64,000 nucleotides of DNA. Source: Alcanivoracaceae bacterium (GTDB taxonomy: Bacteria; Pseudomonadota; Gammaproteobacteria; Pseudomonadales; Alcanivoracaceae). The stretch covers positions 1-64,000 of the forward strand of contig JARGPU010000002.1 of the NCBI GenBank assembly GCA_029210325.1, written 5' to 3'. Below, one piece after another: positions 648-20,294 of this stretch. Below the pieces are notes generated by a model that ran no database searches, was not told the origin of the DNA, and saw only the letters and a program-made list of their open reading frames with translations. Positions within the stretch are counted from its first letter, which is position 1; each line of letters starts with the position of its first letter. Both the position numbers and the translations under genes were made by a program.

Positions 648-2963
648 TCACTTTTCCCGGCGTCCCTCCGAAGTTACCAGCTGCAGGCGCTTTTCCAGCC
701 CCAGTTCGGATAGCAGTTTTTGCACGGCATCCTTGCGCACGGGTTTGCTGAGGAACTGGTCCATACCTGCTTGTTGCATCTTGTCGCGTTGCTCCTGCAG
801 CACATGTGCAGTCAGGGCGACCACGGGGGTGCGCGGCAGGCCAGCGCGAGCTTCTATTTCGCGAATTTTTTCTGTCGCGGTAATACCGTCCATCACCGGC
901 ATCTCGCAGTCCATTAGCACCAGATCAAAAGCCCCGCCGGCAGCCCGGTAGGCGGCGGTGGCTTCCTCACCGTTGCGGCACAGCACTGGAGCTATGCGCA
1001 GGGCGCCCAGAATGGCACGGATAACATCTCTGTTAACGTCGTTGTCTTCTGCAACCAGCACACTCAGGTGATCAAAGCGGCTATGCTCGCTTATCTGGCT
1101 GGTCGGTAGCGTCTGACTGGCCATGGCACTGTCATTCAGAAATTGTCCCAGGGCACTGGGTGTCACCGGCTTGTTGAGAATCGGGTAGCCGTCAGTGCTC
1201 TGGTCGATGCTGGCTAGAAGGGTGACTTTACTACGCCAGTGTTGCAGGCGCTGACGTGTCTGTGCATCAGCTGCAATTACCAGGGCACTGTCCACCAGCA
1301 CATGATCGAAGCTCTCGGCCATTTCAATATGGGACAAGTCCGTGCCAGTGGTTACCGTGGCGCCAGCATGTTCGAGCATGTGTTGCAAAGCGCGCTGCTC
1401 CGCATCCGAACGAGTCAGTAAAAGAATATTGCGCAGTGATGGCTGGTGGGGTTCCGCCGATGCAGTGCTATAGGTGGGTAAAGGTAAGTCGAGCCAGAAA
1501 CAGGAGCCTTCTCCCGGGGAGCTGATGACACCAATCTGGCCGGACATCAGCTCGGTCAATCGGCGACACACTGCCAGTCCCAGACCGGTGCCGCCAAAGC
1601 GACGGGCAGTGGACTGGTCTGCCTGAGTGAATACCTCAAAAATACGTTCTTGCTGGTCAACGGAAATGCCGACGCCGGTGTCCTGAACCTCGACATGCAG
1701 GCCACGTTGCCCGCTGCCCAGTTGCTGCTCCGTGACTCGCACCAGCACATGACCTTCGCGGGTGAACTTGACCGCATTGTTAATCAGGTTGAGCAGGATC
1801 TGCCGCAGTCGGACCGGATCGCCATATACCCAGCGGAACTGGTCAACGGTGACATCCATGATCAAATCCAGAGACTGCTGCCTGGCAACACCGGCAAAAG
1901 CACTAATCGCATCTTCAGTAAGGGATTGGATATCGACTGGTGCCGACTCCAATGACAACTGGCCAGCTTCGATCTTGGAGAAATCCAGAATATCGTTGAG
2001 TACTGCAATAAGGTTGTCGCCGGAATGCTGCATCAGCTCAACATAATGACGTTGTCTTTCATTCAAGTCGCTGTTTGCCAGTAGGTCCAGCACGCCGATA
2101 ATTCCGTTCATCGGTGTGCGGATTTCGTGACTCATGGTGGCCAGAAACTCGCTTTTCGCCTGATTGGCGCTTTCCGCTCGGATACGCTGTTCTTCGTTTC
2201 GCTCGCGCTCAAGTCTCTCTGCATCGAGTGCTTCTTCGGTTTGTTCACGTTGGACTATGTCACTGCGTAGAGTCTCGCGCATTTCGTTGATGGCATCAGC
2301 GATATCCTGCAGTTCATCACGCTGCAGGTTCTGCCGTGGCAGTTCCAGCGGGTGATGCAGTTTGGTGATGGATAGTTCTCGGGCATATCGCGCGATAGCC
2401 CGTAGATGGCGACCAAGCATATGACGCATCAGCAGCATTATTACTGCAGCGATGATCAGAGTCTTGATGGTTTGGAACAGAATGATGAAAAGGGCGTGCT
2501 CGCCAACCCGTTGATATAGCGCATCACGGCTTAGCTGGATATACAACTCACCAAGTGGCTCTGCGCTGCCATCACGGCGACGATAGATGATCGGATAACT
2601 GTTGGTGCGTTGGCTCTCTGCGCTGCCCCGTGGATCTCCCACCAGCAGACTGCGAGTTTGACCATTCCAGTCCTGCCACTGCACTTCCGCTCCGGTCACC
2701 TCTGGCAGACGCACCAGAGCTTCCAGCTGAACACCTAATTGTTCCTCGTCGAAGTTCCACAGACTTCGAGTGATTCCGGGCAGAGTAGTTAGCTCAACTT
2801 GCTCGAGATTGCGCTCCATATCGGACAGGCCCTGATCGAACTCGCGTGCCAGTAGCAGCAGGATTGCGACAAGCGTGATTACCGAGCTGATCAGCAGGAT
2901 GGCGCCCATCAGGCGGAAGGCGAGGGGGTTGTCAGTATGGTAACGACGTAAGCGAGAAATCAT
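648..2963 (-). CDS. Membrane hybrid sensor histidine kinase with C-terminal receiver
   Basis: The start chosen is [18 protein letters not shown] at 2963 (771 residues). The open frame runs 70 codons further upstream, but that extension is low-complexity and lies before the membrane segment. Order: TM1 (about 20-40), a periplasmic CHASE-like sensor (about 45-155) with a [15 protein letters not shown] segment, TM2 (about 157-180), a HAMP-like linker and coiled coil, HisKA with His279 in [13 protein letters not shown], HATPase, a degenerate receiver-like stretch ([12 protein letters not shown]), and a true receiver with Asp685 in [13 protein letters not shown]. There is no HPt domain, so phosphate must leave through a separate HPt protein. 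A lone HPt gene is present at 26123-26470. The layout resembles Pseudomonas hybrid kinases that feed HptB, but no ortholog is claimed. Confidence 0.85.
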
Positions 2964-3187
2964 AGCCAGGACCCTCCGTGGACCTGTGGGAAAAGATAGC
3001 ACGAATACCCCGGGGGGATCAGCCTGCTGCCCCCTTGTCTTTGGTGATTCCGTGTCGTTGCGCACAGTCCTTGCACGCCACGCCTCCCGTCTAAGACTAT
3101 GTTCTGATCCTAGAGCTGGGCATGCTTCATCACAACCCCCCGCAATGGGGGTCCCGACGAGTGGTATACACAATATGCTTTGAGGGT

Positions 3188-4651
3188 TTACCCCTCTTTG
3201 CGAATCAGCCGTAAGTGGCGAAGTTTCTCGGTTTCGATACGGTCAAGACGCTGCAGGCAATTACGGAAAGTATGGCTGATCATAGTGGTGTTGCGGATCA
3301 GCTCGATTTTCGGCCAGGTAGCTTTCTCGCCGCTGCGAATAAAGTCCCGTACATCCTCCACAGAGGGGTTGCGCAGCACTTTGAGGATGTTGGTTGCCTG
3401 TCGCGGCGGGATAATGTTGATGTCGCCGAAATACTTCTGTTTGAGAATCGATTCTGCCTTATCAAGGATCAGACCAAGGTCATTTGACTGCACCTGTCGC
3501 TGGGCCAGATTCAAAACAAAGCGCGCATTCATAGTGAAGTTGCGCAGTGCCAGATTGCCCAGCGCCGGTAGCATGCGGCCGCCACCCTTGCGAGCCAGAA
3601 AGGGCACCACATGGGGGTTGGTCTGGCTGACGATCGAATGGTTGACGCCATATAGACGTGCCAAACGATGCACCGGAAGGTCGTCTTTGATGGAACCGTC
3701 GACCCATTTGCGACTGGGGATATAGGGTACCTTTTCGCCATCAATGTTCTTTGCCCATAACGTCACCGGGGGATAGATTCCGGGAATTGCACAAGACGCC
3801 AGTGAAGCCTTGCGAATTAGTACATTAGGAGACGTGCGCCAGTTTAGCAGGCGGGCATGCTGATGACGGTCGTAGGGGCTGACAGTGATATTGATTTCCC
3901 TGCCAGTCTTGCGATAGGCCTCTTCAAAGGTCAAATCATCAATGTTCTCTTCCAGACAGGCTTCCAGATAGTTGCCATCCAGCACAGGCTTGCCGCGCAA
4001 GGTGCCGTCCCAGCCCACTACCTTGAATGCCTCCAGATAGATGTTTTCCGGCTCCAGCTTGGTGAGTAGCTCCGAGTCGTCATGGGTGCCGACCACTGAG
4101 GCGATAATAGAGCCGGCGCTCGAGCCAGAAATGATCGGTGGCAGCAGACCTTGTTCCCACAGTGCCTTGGCGACACCAATATGGAATAAGCCAAGCGCGG
4201 CTCCTCCAGACATCATCAGGCAACTTTGCCCAAAGGCCTGACCAGTGGTTTGGAAAAAATCCAGCTTTTCCTTGAAGGGAAGCCCTTCAAATTCGTTGTC
4301 GCACAGGTAGTCCAAAGCGGCGGTGACTTCGGCCAGATAACGCTCTATCAGCCGTTTGGTGCCAACCCGGGCATGGCTGTACAGAGCCGGATTGGAAATA
4401 TTGCCAAGATTGCCATGCAGGCCCTCGTGCAAATGGAACACCAGCTTGTTGACGTCGTTACGCTCGCGGGCCTGACGGATCTGTGCCAGACGGTTGCGAA
4501 TCAATTCATAGTCATAATGCTGGGAGCGGTCTATTTCCTTCCAGGCGTCGGCGCCGGACAGGCGGTCGTGTTCAAGGCAGGCCTCACGCCACTCTTCATA
4601 GGTGGTGGCTTGATCAATGGCTCTTTCAAGTTGCTTCAGGGCGCGTTTCAT
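3188..4651 (-). CDS. Patatin-like phospholipase with DUF3336 N-terminus
   Basis: The 487-residue protein has the patatin catalytic dyad. The nucleophile elbow GSSAG lies at residues 176-180 (Ser178), an oxyanion-hole segment [17 protein letters not shown] precedes it, and the aspartate lies in [12 protein letters not shown]. The first 150 residues match the helical DUF3336 region found in front of bacterial and fungal patatin lipases (SDP1/TGL types). The family hydrolyses acyl esters of phospholipids or triacylglycerol. There is no signal peptide, so it is probably cytosolic or membrane-associated. The gene stands between the sensor kinase and an AraC-type regulator, all on the minus strand but with separate spacing. 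Substrate and biological role are not visible. Confidence 0.88.
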
Positions 4652-4705
4652 AGGGGCACCTGCTAATGTGACAGTGCCCGGAGTATAGCGACTAAGCGGT
4701 TCTGA

Positions 4706-5767
4706 TTATCCACTTTTGTCTGACAGGTTTTCTGAGCTTGGTAATGATTTGTTCTGATCTCGATATTCTCCGGGGGTCATCTGGTGGTGGCGCTTGAAGC
4801 TGCGCTGGAAAGAGCGGATATCTGAATATCCAAGTCTTTCGGCGATTTCGGTCTGCGCCATGGGGGTGTCGCGCAGGTAGGTTCTGGCCAGCTCCTGACG
4901 CAGGTTGTCGAGGATATCCTGCCAACTGGTGCCCTCATCCTGCAGGCGCCGGTGCAGGGTGCGGACGTTCAGACCCAGATCTTCCGCAACCTGTTCTTTA
5001 CGCGGCAAGCGCTCGGTCAATGACGACAGGATGCGGTTGCGCACCTTCTGTGTCAGAGTGGTTTCAATGCCCAGAGACTGTAGCTTGCGTGCCGCATGGG
5101 CCTCCAATGTGGAGTGCAGCTGTGGGTCAGGTTGACGCAGGCGGTGCTGCAGGGACATCGGCGAGGAAATAATTGCTGAGCAAGGCTGGTCAAAGCGCAC
5201 CTCGCAGCCAAATATCCTACGGTAGTCCTCGCGCAGGCGGCGATCCTCCGGTGCCCCATGCTCAAGCATGACCAGTTCGGGAGACAGGCCTGAATTGTCG
5301 GTCAGCCAGCGTGAGTACAGCACCCAGGAGCCGAGAACATTTTCGATCAGGTGACGGCGCGCGGGCTGCTTTTGGTGACGGCATATCCAGCGAACTTCAA
5401 CCAGCCCTTCATTCACCAGCGTTTCAGTAACGCCCATATCGCCGACCAGTTTTTCGTACAGGGCTACCTTGGACAACGCCTCGAACAGGGTCGAGGCACT
5501 CATTGCGATATAGCCCATGACGCTGTAAGAACCGGGCTGAACATATTGGGAAGTATGCAGCCCGAAAAGTGGGTCGCCGGAGGTCTCAATCAGCCAGATA
5601 AGCAGCTTTTCAAATTGCTCCCCGGGAATCCTTGCTTCCGGGTCGTCCGCCAGTGTGGGAGCAATGCCGGAGTGCAACAGGCCCTTTGATGGGTCAACGC
5701 CAGCGGCACGGGCGCTAACCAGATACTGGTTCAGTGCTGCGCCGGAAATGGTGCCCAGATCATTCAT
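4706..5767 (-). CDS. AraC family transcriptional regulator
   Basis: The 353-residue protein has an N-terminal arabinose-binding-like region of the PF12625 type (about 20-215) and a C-terminal double helix-turn-helix (about 240-340), including DTPMAQTEIAERLGYSDIRSFQRSFKRHHQMTPGEYR. This architecture is that of the OruR/ArgR-like and MmcR-like regulators that are numerous in Pseudomonas. The effector and target genes cannot be read from the sequence. Regulation of the adjacent patatin gene (same strand, downstream, 54-bp gap) is possible but unproved. ATG at 5767 is taken as the start because the conserved MNDLGTISGAALNQYLVSARAAG region begins there. Confidence 0.9.
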   Translation of the reverse strand: MNDLGTISGAALNQYLVSARAAGVDPSKGLLHSGIAPTLADDPEARIPGEQFEKLLIWLIETSGDPLFGLHTSQYVQPGSYSVMGYIAMSASTLFEALSKVALYEKLVGDMGVTETLVNEGLVEVRWICRHQKQPARRHLIENVLGSWVLYSRWLTDNSGLSPELVMLEHGAPEDRRLREDYRRIFGCEVRFDQPCSAIISSPMSLQHRLRQPDPQLHSTLEAHAARKLQSLGIETTLTQKVRNRILSSLTERLPRKEQVAEDLGLNVRTLHRRLQDEGTSWQDILDNLRQELARTYLRDTPMAQTEIAERLGYSDIRSFQRSFKRHHQMTPGEYRDQNKSLPSSENLSDKSG

Positions 5768-5786
5768 GGCAGACCCCGCCGTAAAA

Positions 5787-6491
5787 TCAGTCGAGAAGGA
5801 AACGTATCATTACTTGGCTACGTAAGGTGACTTCGCCGGCACTGTAGCTGGACTTGTCTGCCTGAGATTCCATGGCCATGGCGCGTAGCGGTTGTGGGCC
5901 TGGTAGCTGTGTTCCCTGCTCAATGATCATCAGCGCCGGGCCCAATTCGCGGCCGGCCGCGCTCGCAAGAATATCAGCACGATGACGGGCGTTGTGTACC
6001 GCTCGTTGCAGTACCTCGTCCTCCAGGGAGGCCAGATCACCGACTTCGGCGCCGGCTTGTTGTAGCTCGCTCGGCGATAGGGCCGTGAGCCGGTCAAGCA
6101 ACTCGATATAGTTATCCATGCCATCGACGCTGATCTGCACATCCCGCGATACCCGCTGGCCAATCAGTTTGCGTTCCGGCTGCCATTGCCATTCTGGCTG
6201 CACGTTCAGGGAGCTGGCCTGAATTTTCTTGTCCTCAATGCCAAGTGCCCGGGCAGCGGCCAGCGCTTGCGACATTTGCTGATCCAGCCTGGTTTTCATG
6301 GCCGCCACATCAGTGCCGACCTCACTGAACTTGGCACGAAGGCTAAAGCGGTCCGGCACGGCGCTAATCTCGGCGACGCCCTGTACTTCAATATGTGCCG
6401 GAGTAGTATCGGCGGCGGTGCTGTTGGCGATCTGATTGTCGCAGCCTGTCAGTAGGGCAAGGCAAAGTGAGGCAAGCAGGGCAAGGCGCAT
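5787..6491 (-). CDS. SIMPL (DUF541) domain lipoprotein
   Basis: The start at 6491 gives MRLALLASLCLALLTGCDNQ, a lipoprotein signal with a lipobox ending LTGC, and GGAG stands about 8 bases upstream. An ATG 63 bases further out would place the signal peptide internally. The 234-residue protein is a SIMPL/DUF541 domain (IEVQGVAEISAVPDRFSLRAKF onward), a family of periplasmic or lipid-anchored proteins related to E. coli YggE with ill-defined roles, sometimes linked to oxidative stress. The sequence lacks an Asp at +2 except for the weak CDN, so Lol avoidance is uncertain. It diverges from mrp with a gap of about 125 bp. Confidence 0.85.
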   Translation of the reverse strand: MRLALLASLCLALLTGCDNQIANSTAADTTPAHIEVQGVAEISAVPDRFSLRAKFSEVGTDVAAMKTRLDQQMSQALAAARALGIEDKKIQASSLNVQPEWQWQPERKLIGQRVSRDVQISVDGMDNYIELLDRLTALSPSELQQAGAEVGDLASLEDEVLQRAVHNARHRADILASAAGRELGPALMIIEQGTQLPGPQPLRAMAMESQADKSSYSAGEVTLRSQVMIRFLLD

Positions 6492-6617
6492 GAAAATATC
6501 TCCGATGGGCAGTGATGTGATTGTGCCGAATAAGATTGTCCGCTGCACGGGCACTGATAGGGCCGGTGACGTCGCCGGCCCGTCGGCCTATCATGTCGCC
6601 GGTTTCCGGGAGGAAGT

Positions 6618-7706
6618 ATGGCGATCAGTGAGCAGGTAATACGACAGGCTTTGGCGACCATCGTGCCGCAGGAACTGGCTACAGATCTAATTAGTGCTGG
6701 CTGTGTGCATCGGCTGGATGTCGCTGATGCCGGGGTGTTGCTGGAAGTTCGGCTGGGTTTCCCCTGTGATAGTCAGCTGGCCCGCTATCAAGCTCAGATC
6801 AGCGAGTCCCTGGCGCCCGTGCTTGGTGGAGTACCACTGCACCTTCGGGTCGATTGGCAGGCCTTGCCGCATCGTGCCCAGCAGAATATGGCGGCGCTTG
6901 ATCAGGTAAGTAACATTATTGCGGTGTCTTCGGGCAAGGGAGGGGTGGGTAAATCGACCACTGCCGTCAATCTGGCGCTGGCGCTGCAGGCGGAAGGCGC
7001 CCGCGTTGGAGTGCTCGATGCCGATGTGTTTGGCCCCAGTCTGCCGCTGATGCTCGGCGTGCCAGAGGGTCAGCGGCCTCAAGTGAAGGACGGCCGGCTG
7101 TTTATCCCGATCCAGGCCCATGGCCTGCAGACCATGTCCATGGGGTATCTGATTGATGAAGGCACGCCGGTGGTATTTCGCGGCCCCAAAGCCAGCGGTG
7201 CATTGCTTCAGCTGGTCGAGCAGACCCTGTGGGACCATCTGGATTACTTGATCATCGATATGCCGCCTGGCACCGGGGATATTCAGCTGACGCTGGCCCA
7301 GCGGGTGCCAGTGGCTGGTGCTGTGGTGGTCACCACGCCGCAGGATATCGCCCTGCTGGATGCCATCAAGGGTATTGAGATGTTCCGTAAAACGGATATT
7401 CGTGTGCTTGGCATTGTCGAGAACATGGCTATGCATGTGTGCAGTAGCTGTGGCCATGTTGAGCATATTTTTGGTGAGGGTGGCGGCGCCAGAGTGGCCG
7501 AGCGTTATGACACGGCACTGCTTGGTAGCCTGCCGCTGTCACGCGCTATTCGCGAGCAAGCTGATGGTGGTGCTCCGACAGTGGTGGCCGAGCCGGATAG
7601 TCCGGAGGCCGAGGTCTATCGACAGGTGGCCCGGCGCATGGCTGCCAGGCTGTCGCTGATTGGCGTCGGCCAGCGGGCTTTTCCGCGGGTCAAGATGGAA
7701 CACTGA
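6618..7706 (+). CDS. mrp: Iron-sulfur cluster carrier ATPase Mrp/ApbC
   Basis: The 362-residue protein has an N-terminal MIP18/DUF59 domain (about 1-80) and a deviant Walker A P-loop, SSGKGGVGKSTTAVNLA, around residue 110. Switch regions IIDMPPGTGD and a CSSCGH motif follow, the latter binding a bridging Fe-S cluster in the dimer. Mrp/ApbC proteins bind and transfer 4Fe-4S clusters to apoproteins in the cytosol. The neighbour dcd lies downstream on the same strand, as in Pseudomonas aeruginosa (recalled order), with a gap of about 78 bp. ATG at 6618 is preceded by GGGAGG at a good distance. Confidence 0.93.
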   Translation: MAISEQVIRQALATIVPQELATDLISAGCVHRLDVADAGVLLEVRLGFPCDSQLARYQAQISESLAPVLGGVPLHLRVDWQALPHRAQQNMAALDQVSNIIAVSSGKGGVGKSTTAVNLALALQAEGARVGVLDADVFGPSLPLMLGVPEGQRPQVKDGRLFIPIQAHGLQTMSMGYLIDEGTPVVFRGPKASGALLQLVEQTLWDHLDYLIIDMPPGTGDIQLTLAQRVPVAGAVVVTTPQDIALLDAIKGIEMFRKTDIRVLGIVENMAMHVCSSCGHVEHIFGEGGGARVAERYDTALLGSLPLSRAIREQADGGAPTVVAEPDSPEAEVYRQVARRMAARLSLIGVGQRAFPRVKMEH

Positions 7707-7784
7707 CAGGCCGCACTGCTGCGGTTAACATGCGCCCCTTGCCGGGGATAATCGGACGGGCATAACCAGACTGAGGGAGTCATC

Positions 7785-8354
7785 ATGAGTATCAAGTCAG
7801 ATCGCTGGATCCAGCGTATGGCCGAGCAGCACGGAATGATCGAGCCGTTTGAGGCCAAGCAGGTTCGGCAGGGCATGGATGGCGGTAAGGTGATTTCCTA
7901 CGGTGTGTCGAGTTATGGTTACGACGTGCGCTGTGCAGATGAATTCAAGGTATTCACCAATATCCATTCGGCCACCGTTGACCCCAAACACTTCGATGAA
8001 AAAAGCTTTGTCGATGTTCGCGGCGAGTATTGCATTATTCCGCCAAACTCCTTTGCGCTGGCGCGGACTGTTGAGTACTTCCGGATTCCGCGTAACGTGC
8101 TGACTATTTGTCTGGGTAAGTCTACCTATGCACGCTGTGGGATTATCGTCAATGTGACGCCACTGGAGCCTGAGTGGGAAGGACATGTCACGCTGGAGTT
8201 CTCAAACACCACGACGCTGCCGGCAAAGATCTATGCCAACGAAGGCGTCGCGCAAATGCTGTTCCTTGAGTCGGATGAGGTTTGTGAAGTGTCTTATAAG
8301 GACCGGGGCGGCAAGTATCAGGGGCAGCAAGGGGTAACACTGCCGAGGGCTTGA
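7785..8354 (+). CDS. dcd: dCTP deaminase
   Basis: The 189-residue protein is full length for Dcd and contains the conserved segments [66 protein letters not shown] (with the catalytic glutamate in [13 protein letters not shown]) and the C-terminal [12 protein letters not shown]. It converts dCTP to dUTP in the cytosol, feeding dTMP synthesis. GAGGGAG precedes the ATG. It follows mrp and converges with the DUF3108 gene. Confidence 0.97.
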
Positions 8355-8385
8355 TCGGAGCCTTTTCCGGGGGAGCAAGGCGCTA

Positions 8386-9138
8386 TTATGGGGTGGGAGC
8401 CGATTCTTCTTTGGACTCTTCCGGTTCTTCCACGGCAGCGGAATCAAGCGGGTCTGGCCCGTCATAACGTATCATCAACAGCTCGCCGAAAAGCGCCCGG
8501 TTTTCCACATGACGGGCCTTCACCAGCATGTACTGCAGTGACGGCGCCACCCAGAATATGGTGCGCCGTTGACTGTCCGCCTTGCGCTTTTTTTCGATAA
8601 TGATGGTGTCAATGTCGCCAGCCGGTGTAGACACGGTTTCTTCGCCAGTGACCATAAAGGTGTGGCTGCGCACCTTGTCACCGTAAGCCGCCTTCAGGGT
8701 GAACTCCTTTTGCCCTTCGGCCAGCAGGCATTGGGCTTTGAGCAGCATGGTCAGCTCGTCCAGCGTGCCGGGCTCGATCGGGTAATGGCCTTGTTCTTGA
8801 CCGTCATCGAACAGCACATCCTGAGTGTCCCAGTTGAAGGTCATGCTGTGCTCCCGGCGAATGCCGAAGCCGCGAAACTCGTGTTCATAACGATTGCTTC
8901 TAGGGGCGCAATCATTCCAGCTGAAGTAGCTTTGCTCCCGGTTCTTGATCAGAAAGGAGCGATTCTCCATCTGCATCCGGTATTCGTCCGGCTGGTCCGT
9001 CGGCCCCAGCTGCAGTGTTGCCTTAATGGTGGTCGGGATTCTGCTGACATGCAGGCGGAACTCAGCTTCAAAAGGCTGCAAGGGATCGGCACTGGCGGCG
9101 CCGGCGAGAATCAGCAAAGGCAATATAAGAGCGCGCAT
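8386..9138 (-). CDS. DUF3108 periplasmic protein (second of pair)
   Basis: The start at 9138 is set by the TAATG junction with the upstream DUF3108 gene: the stop TAA and this ATG share one base, indicating coupled translation. The product (250 residues) begins MRALILPLLILAGAASA, a classical signal peptide, and then carries a DUF3108 domain (PFEAEFRLHVSRIPTTIKATLQL onward) and an acidic, glutamate-rich tail (about 230-250). DUF3108 proteins are secreted beta-rich proteins of unknown function. It shares layout and similar segments with the neighbour at 9138-9842 (for example FSWNDCAPRSNRYEHEFRGFG against FSWHQCTPQTTRYSYLREGLG), so the two are tandem paralogs. Confidence 0.85.
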   Translation of the reverse strand: MRALILPLLILAGAASADPLQPFEAEFRLHVSRIPTTIKATLQLGPTDQPDEYRMQMENRSFLIKNREQSYFSWNDCAPRSNRYEHEFRGFGIRREHSMTFNWDTQDVLFDDGQEQGHYPIEPGTLDELTMLLKAQCLLAEGQKEFTLKAAYGDKVRSHTFMVTGEETVSTPAGDIDTIIIEKKRKADSQRRTIFWVAPSLQYMLVKARHVENRALFGELLMIRYDGPDPLDSAAVEEPEESKEESAPTP

Positions 9139-12768: not shown

Positions 12769-13454
12769 TGATTGCGCCTGCGCAGCTGCCGCTAGCGCTC
12801 AAGTTGCGTGCCGGCAGCAGCCTGTCGTCCTTCATCACCGGTGACAATGCACTTCTGCTGGCGGCCCTGAATGAGCTGGGTGGCACTGAATCAGGGCAGC
12901 TTTACCTGTGGGGAGAGTCCGGCTCTGGCCGCAGTCATCTGCTGGAGGCCAAAGTCCGCGAGGCCGGGCGCGCAGGGTGCTTCCTTGCTGCGCAAGAGCT
13001 GATTTCACTTACCCCGGATATGCTAGAGGGCCTTGAGCAGTTCAGGGTGCTGGCGATCGACGATATTGACCTGCTGGCGGGCAGAGCGGATTGGGAGGCG
13101 GCATTGTTCCACCTCTATAACCGGCTGCGAGAGGCGGGCGGATCATTGCTGGTGTCAGCCCGGCAGCCACCGGGCGACAGCGGCTTTCAGCTTGCTGATC
13201 TGGCCTCCAGATTGGCCGCCGGGCCCGTTTGGCGGGTGGTGCCTCTGGCAGATGAGGGCCTGATCGAGCTGGTTCGCCAGCGCGGACGGGGTGTTGGGCT
13301 GGAGGTCGGTGATGATGTGGCGCGCTACCTGCTAGCCCGCTCGACCCGCTCGGCCGCAGCCATCACCGCGCTATTAGAGCAGCTAGATCAGCTGGCAATG
13401 GCTCATCAGCGCCGCCTGACCATTCCCTTTATCCGTAGCCTGCGGCTGGGCTGA
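12768..13454 (+). CDS. hda: DnaA inactivator Hda (DnaA-like AAA+ protein)
   Basis: The 228-residue protein is shaped like the DnaA ATPase domain without its DNA-binding part: QLPLALKLR (clamp-binding QLPL motif near the N-terminus), P-loop WGESGSGRSHLLEA, Walker B VLAIDDIDLLAG, and sensor segments near RSAAAITALLEQLD. Hda binds the DNA sliding clamp through the N-terminal QLSLPL-like motif and stimulates DnaA-ATP hydrolysis after initiation. The P-loop has GRS instead of GKS: the usual lysine is an arginine, which is worth noting for nucleotide binding. It is coupled to the DUF2066 gene. The spacing to the next gene suggests transcription ends here. Confidence 0.92.
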   Translation: MIAPAQLPLALKLRAGSSLSSFITGDNALLLAALNELGGTESGQLYLWGESGSGRSHLLEAKVREAGRAGCFLAAQELISLTPDMLEGLEQFRVLAIDDIDLLAGRADWEAALFHLYNRLREAGGSLLVSARQPPGDSGFQLADLASRLAAGPVWRVVPLADEGLIELVRQRGRGVGLEVGDDVARYLLARSTRSAAAITALLEQLDQLAMAHQRRLTIPFIRSLRLG

Positions 13455-13594
13455 CGGCCTTACAAAACTATAACAGCCGGCGAATGGCGCCACGGCTACA
13501 CTCGTGTTCGCTAACTCTGTGTGCTGTAAGGCTTTAATAGTCGGATTTCACTCAATAACAACCAGAACAGGCCGGTGACGGTCGGAGTTGAAGC

Positions 13595-16500
13595 ATGTTC
13601 CACCGCAGTTCAGTTTCTCTTGTCGCTGTTACCCTTATGGCCCTGTCCGCAACCGCGTCGGCCACTAACTATGACATCGGCACCCGTAGTGATCTGGTCG
13701 CCGCAGACGGGCTGTGCTCGGTGCGCGAGGCCGTAAATGCGATCAACACGCAACGCGGCTACATTGGCGATGTGGCGTCGGATGAACGTGGCGTGACGCT
13801 GGCCGCCAGTGCTGGCGGTGTAAGCCAGCTATCGTTTGTTAAAGAGGTTCGCAACGTCAGCAATAACGGCTCGTTTCTGCCGGTCGGTAGCCGACTGCTG
13901 GCGGAGCGGGGTGATCTGCTTGAGTACCGCATCACTGTTGAGGCCGATGAAGCCGGTGGTGATATTGAAGGTGTGACGCTGCAATTCCTGTTCCCTCATG
14001 AAGACGCCACCGTAATCGACCCGCTCACCGGAACATGGAGAAGCTATGTCTCCAGCTATGTGGCTGGCAGCACCTTGCTTAACGGTGTTGTGGTGGAGGA
14101 TGTGGCAGATAGTTTCCCGTTGGCAAATCCCGCAGCTATTAATGATGCAAATGCTGGTGAAGATGATCTGACCTTTGCAGAGGGCAAAATTCGCGAAGGT
14201 AATAAGGCAGAGATCGTTTTCCGGGCGAGAGTAGAAGCAGGTGATGATGAAGCGGTTTCCGAAGATTTGCCTGAAGTAGAAAACGAGATTGATACAGAAT
14301 ACCTGGTTGAGGCTGAGTGTCCGGCCGGGACCATCGCTAATACTATTTTTCTCAAGTCAGTTCTCGCGGACTCGGAAGATCCAGCGGTGGTTTATCAGCT
14401 TTGTGATGATCCCGGTGCGGTATGTGCCGGTGCTCTGGTGTTAGGAGGTGGACAGGACCGCGATGGCCGTGCGGTGAATCCTGGAATTACCTTCGAGCCA
14501 ATGAGGGAAGATGCCTTTGATCGTGAGGAAAAGAAAAACGTACAGATCAAGGCGGCAGCGAATCGGCGTGTATTCGATGTTCGCAGCGGTGCTACGTTGA
14601 CACTTAAGTTCATGTCGGTAGTTGGTGCCGGCGTTTTGCCGGCAGGCCAGAACGGTGGCCTGATGCTTGTTCTTGGAACGGTCAATATTAACGAAGGTTC
14701 CCTGCTTACTGGCGGTGAAGCTGAGAATGGCGGGGCCATCTATCTGGATGGCAACAGAACCGTGAGTTTCTCCCGTGCTCGCTTTGAGAATAACCATGCG
14801 ACAGCAAATGGTGGCGCGATTGCCTCAGCTAGTACGTTCCGGGGTGGGATTAGCGGTAGTCGCTTCCATTTTATTGGTAACAGTGCGGATGGTGATGGCG
14901 GCGCGATCTACCTTGATGGTCAGGCGCCGTCGATTTTCGCTGATAATGGTACCTTCTATGACAATAGTGCGGTCGATGGTTCTGCCATTCGTATAGCCAC
15001 TGATGAGCGTAGTAGTGGTCTTAATAACGTCACTATTGTTGCCAATGATGCCAGCGCAGGTGCAGCGCTTTCTTATCGGACAGCTGCGACAACAACGGTG
15101 CTTTATGACGAGCTTTATAACTCGGCAGTGCTAGGCAATATCGGCGGCGATTGCGCGGCAGATGATGGCCCCGCTACGGCGGGTAGTGATCTGACCCTTG
15201 ATCTGGCGCAGATTGCCTATGTTGTCAGTACGGGTGCTGCGGATGCTCCAACCTGTGGACCGCTTGATGCGGAATACCTTGATCCATTCAGCGGCGAGCC
15301 GTTTGATTACAGTCTGGTAGATTTCTCTCTTTTACTAGGCAACAACCCAGCCATTACTGACCCGCTGAATCCGGCTTTTGATGACCGGTTTGAGTGTGGG
15401 CCGGCGGCCGGTGCTACCAGCTGTCGGCCGATGACTTTTGATGACGGCCTGCAAGGGTTCTTGCCAAATAATGGCGTTACTCTGCCGGCACCGACGGCAG
15501 GCCATATTGAGCCATCTTTGGTCAGTGCAGGTAGCCCGGAAGATGCTGTTTTCTTTGTCTGTGCGTCGACAGACCAGCGTGAGCTGAATCGAGAGCCGCG
15601 CTGTGATGCAGGTTCAGTTGAGCTGCAGATTGCTGCCGGTACGGATGAGGAATTCAGGCTGGTGCAGGGTCAGGAGGTGCTGCTGGATGTGCTCGCCAAT
15701 GATATGGGCGATCTGGTGGTGGACTGTACGCCTCTTACTGACCCGCTGGCCTGCCTCCAGTTCTTTTTGCCCCCCAGACAGACTGAGGTAGTGCCACTTA
15801 ACTGGGTTAGTGGTCTGGTCAGTCCTGCTAACCCGGATGGAGAAACCAGAGTCACTGTGGTGCCGGACCGTGAAGGCGTTTATTTAAACCGGCTGCCGCT
15901 TGCGGACGAAGAGGAAATGATTTTCCCCGCCGGCTATCCGCTGATACTGCATACGCCGCTGCAGTCATTCCATGGCGTTGATCAGTTCCGTTATTACCTT
16001 GATTCGGATGCGGTTGATGGCCCTACCTATGCGGCAGCTGACCCTTCCGCCAACTCTAATCTTGTGGTTGAGGCCGAATCGGGCCTGAGCAAGAAAGAAG
16101 ATATTACAACGCTTGGCTCTTTTGGTTGGTTAGGGCTTATTTCGCTAATGTCGTTGCTGCTCCGTCGGCTGCGTATTCTGCTGCCTTTGCCTGTTTTGCT
16201 GTTTGCTGCGCAGGTTCAGGCGGCGGATATTATCGTTAACACCTTGGAGGATTCTGCCGATCTGAATGCTCTGGATGGCGATGGAAATCCCTACTCCAAT
16301 AATAAGAAGTGCAGCCTCAGGGAAGCGCTTTTTGTCAGCATTGATCGATCGCCATTTTTCTTCCCGGATTGTATCTCGGGGGAAACGGGGCGTGATCGGA
16401 TTATTATCGATCTGGAAGGTGATATTGAGCTTGAGGCCGTGCTTGATATTTTCAGCTCGAATATTGATATCGAAGGGCAGGGCCCGGGCAAGACTGTCAT

Positions 16501-18832
16501 TCGTCCAGCTCCGGGTAATCAGCATCGAGTTATTCAGGCGACCTCTCTACTTACCCTGCGTAATCTGACCATTGCTGATGGCTATACGACGGATAACGGC
16601 GGCGCTATTTTTACCAACGCATCGTTAACCCTCGAAAACGTTGAGCTGCGTGATAACCAGGCACTTGGTAATGGTGGTGCAATCTATCTTAACTACAACG
16701 CTGAGTTAAGCCGCACTTTTACCATGAACCGCAGTTATGCCCACGGTAATCAGGCTGGTATTAACGGCGGTGTGTTTTCCATGGTTGGTCAGAACCGTGG
16801 CCATGATGTTGTCTTTGATGGAGTGACTTTTTCTGACAATACCGCGCCCAATGGTGCCGGTGGTGCGCTGGATATCAATCTGCCGTTCGCCGGTAGCGCC
16901 CGTATTGTGAATAGCACCTTTGTTGAGAATGACGCGCTTGCTGGTGCAGCGATCGATCTGCAGCAGATGGACTCGGCAGTTAATGTCTACATTATTAACA
17001 GTACAGTTCTGGATGCGGCCGCACCTGTAGCCCCCGGCGCGGGAGTGATTGAGCTGGGCGACAACTCCGGCAGAATATCTCTCTCTAACAGTACCTATGT
17101 TGGCTCGCGGGAATGCACCACTGGCACTAAAGCGTTTGAGCGCCTTTACTACAACTTGTTTTCTGCGCCAACGCCAGCCACCTGCACTGCCGAGTTGCCT
17201 GCAAATGATGTAGCTAACAACGAAGCGAATAGTGCGGACATTCTTGATGTTCTGAATGATGGGGTGCTGGCTGGCGAGCAGTTTGCCGATGATCGCTATA
17301 TTCCACCGCATTTGCCCATTGTTGCCGAGGCTCTGGATAACCCGCTTACCTATCCCGCAGGCCCCTTCATTATTGATGCGGGCAATACGGAGGAGCTGGT
17401 CTCCGGTAATAATTCTCCCCGTGCATGCCGAACCCTTGATCTGCGCGGTACATCTCGGGAGTCCGGCGGTCGCTGTGATATTGGTGCCTATGAACTACAG
17501 GTTCCAACGGCGATCGATGACAGCACTACCAATAAAACCAACTCCGCTCGTGTTGCACGGGTTGATGTGTTGTTCAATGATCTCCCCGGTGATGGTGTAC
17601 CGGATGTGGCTGATGAGATTGTCGACAATGAGGTTTTGCGAGGCACCATTGATCTGGACCCCTCTAATCCTGCGGTAACGCCAAGTAACTCAATTGTGGT
17701 TCCTGTGGAAGGCGGAGGATCGCGTACCTTCACCGTTAGCAAGGTGTTCGACGGTCAATGGCAGTTCGATAATAGTGCCGACGTGCTTGAACCTGGCGTT
17801 TATGAGATCGGTGCAGTGGTCTATAACAGCAATGATGTGTTCGTTGCTAATGCCAGACAGACTCTGATCGTCCGAGACCCTGACCCGGAGTCAGATTTAG
17901 ATGAAGATGCCGTTGAGTTTGTTACCACCGGTGGTTCGGCGCTGCAGATTCAGACCGTTTCTGGTGACGCTGATGGTGACTTTATCGTTGATGATGGTGG
18001 CCTGATTATTAGTGGCCGCAGCGATTCTGAAGATGGCTCCAGAGTCGAGTTGTTTATCGATGATCGCGAGCTTGGCGAGGTAGATCTTTCTCGTGACCCG
18101 GGTGCCTGCGGTGGTGAATCAGGAGCCGCTGTCGACGAAGCCTGTATCGTTTTGGTTGAACCTGTAGATGCCCTGCAGTGTTCGGACTTTGAAGAGGGCG
18201 GTTTTGAGGTGGTATTCCCGTACACCTTTATGGTCTTCAATCAGGAGTCTAACCAGTTAACCACATCCACCAGTGCAGAAGTTACGGTCACTTTTGATAA
18301 TGTTAGCCCACTAATGGAAAGTGAGAGCATTCGTTCGAAGCCCGGGCGCACCGAGGTATTTACTCTTGATATTAACGATCCCGATGGTGTCGTAGAGCTG
18401 CTGGATACCACCGGCGCTGCCCCGGTGCCGCGTATCACGCTGGAAACGCCACCCAAATTTGCCTCCTCAGTTTTGCGTGAGGTGGATACTGGAGAGGGCG
18501 TGGAGTTTTTGCCGCAGGTATTCGGTATCGAAGGTTATGGCACGGTGGACCCGGAGTTTGGCCGGTTGTCAGGGGTGCCTGATGGGCTCGGTCTGGTGGT
18601 GCGCGAGGATGCTGGCGTGATTACCGTGACTTATACCCCGCGTGACAGCCTTGGCCAGTTCAACGATCGATTCGTGCTTGGCTATCGGGATCAGTGCGGT
18701 GCCGAGAGATCCGCTGAGTTCAGAGTGCTGTATCCGGATGCGGAAGCTAATGCTGGTAGTGTCGGTTATTGGTGGATGATGGCAATGATATTGCTGGTCG
18801 GTGGTCGTACTCGGCGCTTATCCCAAGGTTGA
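13595..18832 (+). CDS. Giant CSLREA-domain surface protein; in-frame double precursor
   Basis: The 1745-residue product begins with a signal peptide (MFHRSSVSLVAVTLMALSATASA). The first half has a CSVREA motif (41-46), a right-handed beta-helix stretch with GGAIYLDG repeats (about 370-470) and a cadherin-like LLDVLANDMGD segment. At about 835-850 it has a GlyGly-CTERM-like tail, LGSFGWLGLISLMSLLLRRLR. Directly in frame, Met852 opens a second typical signal peptide (MSLLLRRLRILLPLPVLLFA, then AQVQA before AD), followed by a second CSLREA (906-911), beta-helix repeats, a second VLFNDLPGDG segment, and a final sorting-like tail (SVGYWWMMAMILLVGGRTRR). The halves are 851 and 894 residues. The family is secreted or surface-anchored; its function is unknown. 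No rhombosortase gene is in the window. Confidence 0.85.
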   Translation: MFHRSSVSLVAVTLMALSATASATNYDIGTRSDLVAADGLCSVREAVNAINTQRGYIGDVASDERGVTLAASAGGVSQLSFVKEVRNVSNNGSFLPVGSRLLAERGDLLEYRITVEADEAGGDIEGVTLQFLFPHEDATVIDPLTGTWRSYVSSYVAGSTLLNGVVVEDVADSFPLANPAAINDANAGEDDLTFAEGKIREGNKAEIVFRARVEAGDDEAVSEDLPEVENEIDTEYLVEAECPAGTIANTIFLKSVLADSEDPAVVYQLCDDPGAVCAGALVLGGGQDRDGRAVNPGITFEPMREDAFDREEKKNVQIKAAANRRVFDVRSGATLTLKFMSVVGAGVLPAGQNGGLMLVLGTVNINEGSLLTGGEAENGGAIYLDGNRTVSFSRARFENNHATANGGAIASASTFRGGISGSRFHFIGNSADGDGGAIYLDGQAPSIFADNGTFYDNSAVDGSAIRIATDERSSGLNNVTIVANDASAGAALSYRTAATTTVLYDELYNSAVLGNIGGDCAADDGPATAGSDLTLDLAQIAYVVSTGAADAPTCGPLDAEYLDPFSGEPFDYSLVDFSLLLGNNPAITDPLNPAFDDRFECGPAAGATSCRPMTFDDGLQGFLPNNGVTLPAPTAGHIEPSLVSAGSPEDAVFFVCASTDQRELNREPRCDAGSVELQIAAGTDEEFRLVQGQEVLLDVLANDMGDLVVDCTPLTDPLACLQFFLPPRQTEVVPLNWVSGLVSPANPDGETRVTVVPDREGVYLNRLPLADEEEMIFPAGYPLILHTPLQSFHGVDQFRYYLDSDAVDGPTYAAADPSANSNLVVEAESGLSKKEDITTLGSFGWLGLISLMSLLLRRLRILLPLPVLLFAAQVQAADIIVNTLEDSADLNALDGDGNPYSNNKKCSLREALFVSIDRSPFFFPDCISGETGRDRIIIDLEGDIELEAVLDIFSSNIDIEGQGPGKTVIRPAPGNQHRVIQATSLLTLRNLTIADGYTTDNGGAIFTNASLTLENVELRDNQALGNGGAIYLNYNAELSRTFTMNRSYAHGNQAGINGGVFSMVGQNRGHDVVFDGVTFSDNTAPNGAGGALDINLPFAGSARIVNSTFVENDALAGAAIDLQQMDSAVNVYIINSTVLDAAAPVAPGAGVIELGDNSGRISLSNSTYVGSRECTTGTKAFERLYYNLFSAPTPATCTAELPANDVANNEANSADILDVLNDGVLAGEQFADDRYIPPHLPIVAEALDNPLTYPAGPFIIDAGNTEELVSGNNSPRACRTLDLRGTSRESGGRCDIGAYELQVPTAIDDSTTNKTNSARVARVDVLFNDLPGDGVPDVADEIVDNEVLRGTIDLDPSNPAVTPSNSIVVPVEGGGSRTFTVSKVFDGQWQFDNSADVLEPGVYEIGAVVYNSNDVFVANARQTLIVRDPDPESDLDEDAVEFVTTGGSALQIQTVSGDADGDFIVDDGGLIISGRSDSEDGSRVELFIDDRELGEVDLSRDPGACGGESGAAVDEACIVLVEPVDALQCSDFEEGGFEVVFPYTFMVFNQESNQLTTSTSAEVTVTFDNVSPLMESESIRSKPGRTEVFTLDINDPDGVVELLDTTGAAPVPRITLETPPKFASSVLREVDTGEGVEFLPQVFGIEGYGTVDPEFGRLSGVPDGLGLVVREDAGVITVTYTPRDSLGQFNDRFVLGYRDQCGAERSAEFRVLYPDAEANAGSVGYWWMMAMILLVGGRTRRLSQG

Positions 18833-18852
18833 TGCAGTTTCCCTAGTGAGCG

Positions 18853-18884
18853 GCTGTGAGGTATAACGCCCTCACAGCAACTTT
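18853..18884 (+). terminator. Intrinsic terminator after the CSLREA gene
   Basis: A 9-bp perfect stem GCTGTGAGG/CCTCACAGC with an 8-base loop is followed by AACTTTTC. It lies 20 bases beyond the CSLREA stop and just before sthA, so it probably separates the two transcripts. Confidence 0.7.
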
Positions 18885-18896
18885 TCAGGGTGGTTT

Positions 18897-20294
18897 ATGG
18901 ATATCTCGGGTGGTTGGGACTTGGTGGTGATTGGCACCGGTCCCGCCGGTGAGGCGGCAGCAATGCGGGCCGTTAAAAGTGGTCGTCGTGTTGCCGTCGT
19001 TGAAAATCAGCAAACAGTTGGTGGAAGTTGCACCCATCTCGGTACCATTCCTTCTAAAGCACTACGTCATCTGATTCGTCAGGTTATTCGGCACCACCGA
19101 AACCCCCTGCTGCAGGATATGCGCGCCCCGGTAGAGAATCGTTGGGAGCGCATGGTGGCCCGCGCCAGTGAGGTCATCGATGCGCAGGTCAGCGTGCGTA
19201 CCGACTATTACCTGCGTAACCGCATTCCGGTATTCAGTGGTCATGGTCAGCTTGATGGGCCGGGCAGGGTGCGTGTGGAAGATGATAGTGGCCGTCAATG
19301 GCTATTGGAGAGCCAACATATCATTCTGGCTACTGGTTCACGGCCATACCGCCCCAAGGATGTGGACTTTAGCCATCCTGGTATCTATGACAGCGATACA
19401 ATTTTGAGCATGAACTCAACGCCGCGGCACCTGATTATCTATGGTGCAGGTGTTATCGGTTGTGAATATGCGTCCATGTTTGCCGGCCTTGGTATTCAAG
19501 TAGATTTGGTTGACAGTCGTTCCCATCTGCTGGATTTTCTCGATGCGGAAATTTCCGACGCCCTGAGCTACCACCTGCGTGAGCAGGGAGCCACCATTCG
19601 CCATGACGAGCATTACGCCAAGGTGGAAGCAGATGATCAGGGAGTCACGCTGCATCTGCAGTCTGGCAAGAGTATTCGCGCTGATGCGTTGCTATGGTCG
19701 AACGGCCGCACGGGTAACAGCGACGGGCTAGGTTTGGACAGTGTTGGCCTTGAAGCCGATGGTCGAGGCCATCTACGGGTTGACGAGTGTTATCAGACAG
19801 ACTGTGAAGGCATCTATGCGGTGGGTGATCTTATTGGCTGGCCGTCACTGGCCAGCGCAGCCTACGACCAAGGGCGTTTCTGCGCAGGCATGATCTGTGG
19901 TGATGCGCCGCATCAGGTCACCGACGTGCCAACCGGAATCTACACCATTCCGGGGATTAGCTCTGTTGGTCAAACGGAGCAGGAGCTGACCCGACAGCAA
20001 ATTCCTTATGAAGTAGGGCAGGCATTCTTCCGTAATCTGGCGCGGGCTCAGATCACCGCAGAAAAAGTGGGCGTGCTTAAAATCCTGTTTCACCGTGACA
20101 CACTGGCCGTGCTGGGCATTCATTGCTTTGGCTATCAGGCCACCGAAATTGTTCATGTCGGTCAGGCGATCATGCGTCAGCCGGCACCCAACAATACCCT
20201 TAACTATTTTCTTGAAACGACCTTTAATTATCCAACCATGGCAGAGGCGTACCGGGTTGCTGCAATCAATGGTATGAATCGCTTGCGACGCTGA
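18897..20294 (+). CDS. sthA: Soluble pyridine nucleotide transhydrogenase (NAD(P)+ transhydrogenase)
   Basis: The 465-residue flavoprotein exchanges hydride between NADPH and NAD+. The FAD-binding GxGxxG motif is [14 protein letters not shown] near the N-terminus. The active-site region reads [18 protein letters not shown], with only one cysteine where dithiol family members have two; this is the hallmark of SthA. A second GxGxx[21 protein letters not shown], binds NAD(P)H, and [21 protein letters not shown] binds FAD. The dimerisation domain closes the chain. It ends in a hairpin shared with the convergent smr gene. Length matches Pseudomonas SthA. Confidence 0.95.

Follow-up and report, generated by a model that had tools for sequence, protein, structure and literature searches.

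Two tandem RbtA-like preproteins in a single reading frame of Alcanivoracaceae, joined through a conserved internal sorting-like tail: a probable secretory polyprotein

The window, that is, the whole stretch of 64,000 nucleotides analysed here, carries on its forward strand, at positions 13595–18832, a single frame of 1745 amino acids that opens with an ATG, has no internal stop codon, and consists of two mutually homologous preproteins in tandem, each with a signal peptide, a CSLREA motif, a beta-helix and a GlyGly-CTERM-like tail. The start is preceded by a Shine-Dalgarno-like GGAG (13584–13587) and followed by signal peptide 1 (residues 1–23, 13595–13663), MFHRSSVSLVAVTLMALSATASA, which ends in ATASA before T. 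After this come the CSVREA motif of the first half (residues 41–46, 13715–13732), an extra block of some 185 residues delimited by alignment (about 55–240, 13757–14314), and a beta-helix (about 310–522, 14522–15160) recognized as RbtA-like by a profile match to the RbtA crystal and by a fold match; a signal peptide, CSVREA and beta-helix at the head of one stop-free frame is what the earlier sequence-only reading of this DNA had described. The extra block is found only in the three members of the window's genus among the 22 aligned sequences, and has a dN/dS of 0.15.

The first half ends in an internal GlyGly-CTERM-like tail (829–860, 16079–16174), SGLSKKEDITTLGSFGWLGLISLMSLLLRRLR, made up of a linker motif, GSFG, a hydrophobic stretch and RRLR (857–860), and this tail reads on without a stop into signal peptide 2 (857–876, 16163–16222), where the same RRLR is the n-region, followed by an h-region and AAQVQA (871–876) before AD (RRLR-ILLPLPVLLFAAQVQA, then AD). 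The basic n-region, short h-region and AxA-like site fit the signal peptidase I type, and from the position of AAQVQA the mature second half is predicted to begin at Ala877 and to run to about residue 1718 (16223–18748), with the cleavage site, after 876, where the sequence-only reading had placed it. That reading had also pointed to an ATG at 16148 (Met852, 16148–16150), which is indeed in frame and has no Shine-Dalgarno-like sequence before it. The second half contains its CSLREA motif (906–911, 16310–16327), a beta-helix taken from an AlphaFold model (about 934–1210, 16394–17224), and a C-terminal sorting-like tail (1719–1745, 18749–18829), NAGSVGYWWMMAMILLVGGRTRRLSQG. The internal tail is not at the extreme C-terminus, as a further 885 residues follow it. 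Pfam gives no family over its cut-off in the extra block or in the stretches before both tails, and Rfam gives no regulatory RNA at 13300–19000; a promoter scan finds 0 sites (shuffle mean 4.4), and there are 8 terminator-like sites (shuffle mean 5.5, sd 2.3).

When the halves are compared with each other, as had been proposed, their profiles (18 and 19 rows) match from CSLREA to a VLxND motif with an hhalign E-value of 3.8e-39, which identifies them as paralogous preproteins and rules out chance similarity. The cut-off of the RbtA equivalog model TIGR04212 (295 bits) is reached neither by the whole frame (58.9 bits), nor by half 1 (39.8) or half 2 (27.7), nor by two other fused frames (97.2 in G430, 51 in G060). 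The CSLREA domain model TIGR04214 (cut-off 25 bits) is reached by the whole frame with 29.4 bits drawn from two stretches; half 2 alone gives 21.6 bits, and half 1 alone is not listed. With regard to the fold, the profile of half 1 matches the RbtA crystal 9cdu with an E-value of 2.6e-26, and Foldseek places RbtA (9cdv_A) first for the model of this half (E 5.2e-7). For half 2, VIA-align 2 also places 9cdv_A first, with Z 29.8 over 329 aligned residues at 3.0 A, ahead of a PL6 alginate lyase (24.8); Foldseek ranks RbtA only ninth, and the sequence profile of this half has as its sole match in the PDB a repeat match to 7w5z, RbtA being absent. According to the models, whose mean pLDDT is 60 and 61 and better in the helices, both halves have the RbtA fold. 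Since many beta-helix enzymes and adhesins are among the further fold matches, the fold tells no function.

The protein query matches 24 of the 57 genomes searched, its own included, and one open frame with both halves is present in 22 of the 36 Alcanivoracaceae genomes (in one of them, G002, the frame ends at the contig end after the second CSLREA), and the fused layout is conserved across genera. The two remaining matches are a decayed copy (G008) and a partial match (G038). The protein query finds nothing in thirteen genomes of the family, including all ten of genus g3; in one of these ten (G004) there is a partial profile match in another frame, of 2346 amino acids. Two CSLREA motifs in one frame are found in 20 of the 20 Alcanivoracaceae-type loci, one of them (L073) cut at a contig end; these loci overlap the 22 fused-frame genomes, and the scan count covers L072–L091. 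The copy in G008 (L051, about 5000–8900) is a tandem with stops and frameshifts, flanked by the same neighbouring genes as in the window; it was considered as a split form and rejected on account of that decay. A frame of 2563 amino acids in another locus of the family (L169 in G005, 931–8619) closes with a clear GGGS tail and RRRR, and is a second large candidate for a sorting tail. Profile searches were extended to 390 genomes of the order, 61 of family f36, one of f26 and 369 of the class; in all, 45 of the 390 genomes of the order and 58 of the 369 of the class match, the weaker partial matches having been examined in part. A fused frame, of 1613 amino acids, is also present in another family (G060).

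The 22 junctions align with one another as a Gly/Ser stretch, a hydrophobic stretch, a basic cluster in which R857 is invariant, a second hydrophobic stretch and an AxA-like site. The linker varies in the relatives from a few to roughly 35–40 residues, and therefore the double use of RRLR as both end of the tail and n-region, proposed in the sequence-only reading, applies to the short-linker members and is not a conserved requirement. Between the window's own genome (G000) and G001, which belongs to the same genus, dN/dS is 0.09 over the whole frame and 0.20 in the 47 junction codons, so the frame, junction included, is under purifying selection in this pair. That reading had offered a lost stop codon as its alternative, either as a real event or as a sequencing or assembly error hiding a stop; the error is refuted by 30 loci from several genera in which the junction is likewise open, and hardly any probability can be left to it. 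The loss of a stop codon as an evolutionary route, by contrast, is likely and does not compete with the reading as a precursor.

The pair also occurs in f36, which is probably Moraxellaceae. Of its genomes, 34 match: 30 carry 31 split loci, three of a single genus (G408, G420, G430) carry fused frames of 1488–1520 amino acids, and one with a single weak match (G409) stands outside both counts. In the split loci, ORF1 ends in a sorting tail and a stop, the corresponding tail being the end of the protein in all 31, and ORF2 opens with its own signal peptide, with a Shine-Dalgarno-like start positioned between −4 and +23 nt relative to the first stop in 30 of the 31; in two of the loci the ORFs share one frame and are separated by a stop codon. 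Three genomes were tested for the identity of the members: in each, ORF1 passes the curated RbtA cut-off (676, 725 and 381 bits against 295) and ORF2 is a CSLREA protein. ORF1 of G456 matches the RbtA crystal chain of A. baumannii with an E-value of 7.4e-78. The split boundary coincides with the position of the fused junction; the split neighbours for which one would look, with the junction at the same place, thus exist as adjacent or overlapping genes.

In a quick tree of half 2, in which G060 is a long branch of unsure placement, the fused genus of f36 is nested in the split clade, and the fused state requires two changes. A single fused clade is rejected by an AU test on 58 rows (p 2.7e-56), a set that leaves out G002, G436, G417 and the outgroups, and hence there have been two or more changes of state, all of them at one and the same boundary. 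The gene is best explained as the fused form of a pair that exists in the relatives as two overlapping genes, and both of its processing signals have stayed in place; that the change went in this direction is what we infer.

With an HMM built on the C-termini of ORF1 in the 31 split loci, 28 of the 30 fused junctions outscore every one of 600 shuffles (best 6.7 bits), a control in which shuffling breaks up hydrophobic runs as well; as three of the 30 junctions belong to f36 itself, 25 of 27 is the fairer count. The window's internal tail reaches 19.1 bits, and the junctions of G025 and G012 lie within the shuffle range, up to 6.7 bits. This value is exceeded by none of 92 N-terminal signal-peptide stretches and by none of 64 hydrophobic stretches taken from the window's other frames; three of the 30 reversed junctions do exceed it, the best with 10.1 bits, which 26 of the 30 real junctions surpass. 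When the whole fused proteins are scanned, 24 of the 30 have their best match at the internal tail and six at the final one. TIGR03501 gives the internal tail of the window 13.5 bits, under its cut-off of 15.5, and in a genome-wide search at E up to 10 this tail is one of the two matches (12.2 bits there). The GlyGly-CTERM-like tail of the sequence-only reading is in place, with GS..G where a GG pair was to be expected. The second sorting-like tail of that reading is likewise present, weaker than the internal one, and TIGR03501 reports no match for it. At the same E limit this model matches 13 of the 22 internal tails and 14 of the 20 final ones, the latter set being without G002 (contig end) and G016 (identical to G005), and MYXO-CTERM models match seven of 22 and 14 of 20, respectively. 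As the MYXO-CTERM models match such tails too, the type of the tail rests on the rhombosortase of the genome and not on the motif.

For the signal peptide on the far side of the junction the comparison is less sharp. With an HMM of the split ORF2 signal peptides, the window gives 16.0 bits, against 6.1 for the best of 600 shuffles and 10.8 for the best reversed junction; 20 of the 30 fused junctions exceed the best shuffle, as do two of the 30 reversed ones, and this profile was set aside as too weak to prove the signal peptide on its own. An AxA-like site is present in all 30 junctions, a count inflated because the site was picked by pattern, and in 22 of 30 when the pattern is strict. The in-frame ATG at 16148 and the overlapping start used by the split relatives might suggest that ribosomes also start inside the frame, at Met852 or close to it, and so produce protein 2 on its own as well. 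There is, however, no Shine-Dalgarno-like sequence near Met852, and with the same pattern that finds such a start in 30 of 31 split pairs, only three of the 30 fused junctions have one in frame (two with a stricter pattern), which makes a separate product of this kind very improbable.

The enzyme that would act on the tail is encoded in the same genome, where the sequence-only reading had suggested looking for it: a rhombosortase (TIGR03902, cut-off 84 bits) at G000:C5:56738–57193, with 154.3 bits. Rhombosortase over the cut-off is found in 35 of the 36 family genomes, including all 22 with the fused form, and in none of 14 control genomes; being nearly universal in the window's family, it is uninformative there with respect to the tandem. 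It is in f36 where the association can be seen, with rhombosortase in 31 of the 34 genomes that have the RbtA-pair family against none of the 27 without it (Fisher p 2.6e-14, not corrected for relatedness), the exceptions being G412, G420 and G430, the last two with the fused form. The assemblies of G420 (L225) and G430 (L214) are 94% and 91% complete, and the loss of rhombosortase could be real. Within genus g118 of f36, pair and rhombosortase are both present in G351, G428, G446, G451 and G456, and both absent from G282 and G438. The type II secretion system secretin GspD is over the cut-off in the window's own genome and in 32 of 34 genomes searched.

If only one of the two internal sites were cut, for example by signal peptidase I alone, protein 1 would stay anchored with an extended hairpin, and two observations agree with this: the window's tail has no GG and lies below the TIGR03501 cut-off, and two fused-form genomes of f36 have no detectable rhombosortase. 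Against it stand the similarity to the natural tail kept in 28 of the 30 fused junctions and the rhombosortase in all 22 fused-form genomes of the family, and we consider a single cut improbable. Somewhat less improbable, and still unlikely, is that the protein is not cut at all, its internal hydrophobic pair forming a stable hairpin in the membrane that anchors two outside beta-helix domains. Two short hydrophobic stretches with an RR turn are compatible with such an anchor, as are the weak internal tails of G025 and G012; yet in f36 the homologues of this tail and of this signal peptide are divided between two distinct proteins, the junction retains its similarity to a sorting tail, and six of seven other long relatives have no such pair. 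By the same plain rule that detects a hydrophobic pair at the junction of 23 of the 30 fused frames, these six of seven frames over 900 amino acids (those held by seven of the 11 loci chosen) have none, a result that also led us to reject the pair as a common property of long proteins of the CSLREA type. In G710 (L234), a frame of 1517 amino acids with three CSLREA motifs, there is no hydrophobic pair between the CSLREA units, and two weak ones lie near the C-terminal end.

The reading we prefer, and hold to be probable from the comparison of these sequences, is that of a secretory polyprotein that signal peptidase I and rhombosortase would cut into two RbtA-like proteins. The precursor for two processing enzymes proposed in the sequence-only reading thus has strong comparative support, from the separate genes of the relatives with the same boundary and from the rhombosortase and GspD in the genome, and cleavage itself is what we infer. 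The steps could have been: (i) Sec export would begin at signal peptide 1, the internal tail would halt transfer, its RR cluster staying on the cytoplasmic side, and export would then be restarted by signal peptide 2 and halted once more by the last tail; (ii) signal peptidase I would cut after about residues 23 and 876; (iii) and finally, rhombosortase would cut at the glycine ends of both tails (about 841 and 1721), so that a short hairpin would be left in the membrane. The output would be two separate proteins of about 86 and 90 kDa, the first rhombotarget A-like and the second a paralogous RbtA-like protein, which would probably be lipid-tagged, handed to the type II secretion system and displayed on the surface.

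A precursor with an internal signal sequence has a parallel in FbcH, the cytochrome b/c1 polyprotein of Bradyrhizobium, where a cut by signal peptidase is expected as it is in the window's frame; in FbcH, however, a membrane protein precedes the signal sequence, and no C-terminal sorting signal is known to be involved. The closest relatives by content are RbtA (TIGR04212; 9CDU/9CDV) and the CSLREA gene adjoining it in f36, which share with the window's frame the CSLREA N-terminus, the beta-helix and the GlyGly-type tail; unlike that pair, both members are here in one frame, and neither half reaches the RbtA cut-off. With the GlyGly-CTERM/rhombosortase system of Vibrio cholerae, represented by VesB, the frame has in common the tripartite tail and a genome with rhombosortase and the type II secretin (PMC3237569, PMC6219818, PMC13393428); the difference is that, as far as the accessible text of these sources goes, the signal is terminal there, whereas the window's copy lies in mid-chain, with a signal peptide and then another whole protein behind it. 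In the accessible parts of the literature, GlyGly-CTERM tails are described as exchangeable, and passage through the outer membrane as dependent on a secondary signal for secretion, for example the Ig fold in VesB (PMC13393428). The same partial sources present RbtA as a surface protein of A. baumannii with a solved beta-helix domain (PMC12643943) and list it as a substrate of the type II secretion system (PMC5861075), count a CSLREA protein among the Acinetobacter type II effectors (PMC9245377), and include among the secreted proteins of one Acinetobacter a neighbouring pair named GlyGly-CTERM and rhombosortase (PMC4713064). In term searches of a mostly open-access literature, neither a GlyGly-CTERM inside a protein nor an RbtA pair in fused form is mentioned in the portions of text available.

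By definition, a sorting signal of the CTERM type is the last element of its protein, and the window's frame offers a candidate for a conserved internal one. It is possible, although the full statement is less probable than the two cuts considered above, that this is a conserved and repeatedly evolved polyprotein with a sorting signal in mid-chain, in which rhombosortase would cut a hairpin that has the signal peptide of the following cargo on its far side; a single round of translation would then give two partner surface proteins at a fixed 1:1 ratio. If so, an intramembrane sortase-like protease could act on hairpins from which the chain runs on into a further cargo. The finding ties RbtA, known from Acinetobacter as a surface protein of solved structure to which the accessible text assigns no function, to a neighbour that split and fused relatives alike have kept, and since nature supplies a series of both split and fused versions, the question is open to direct tests.
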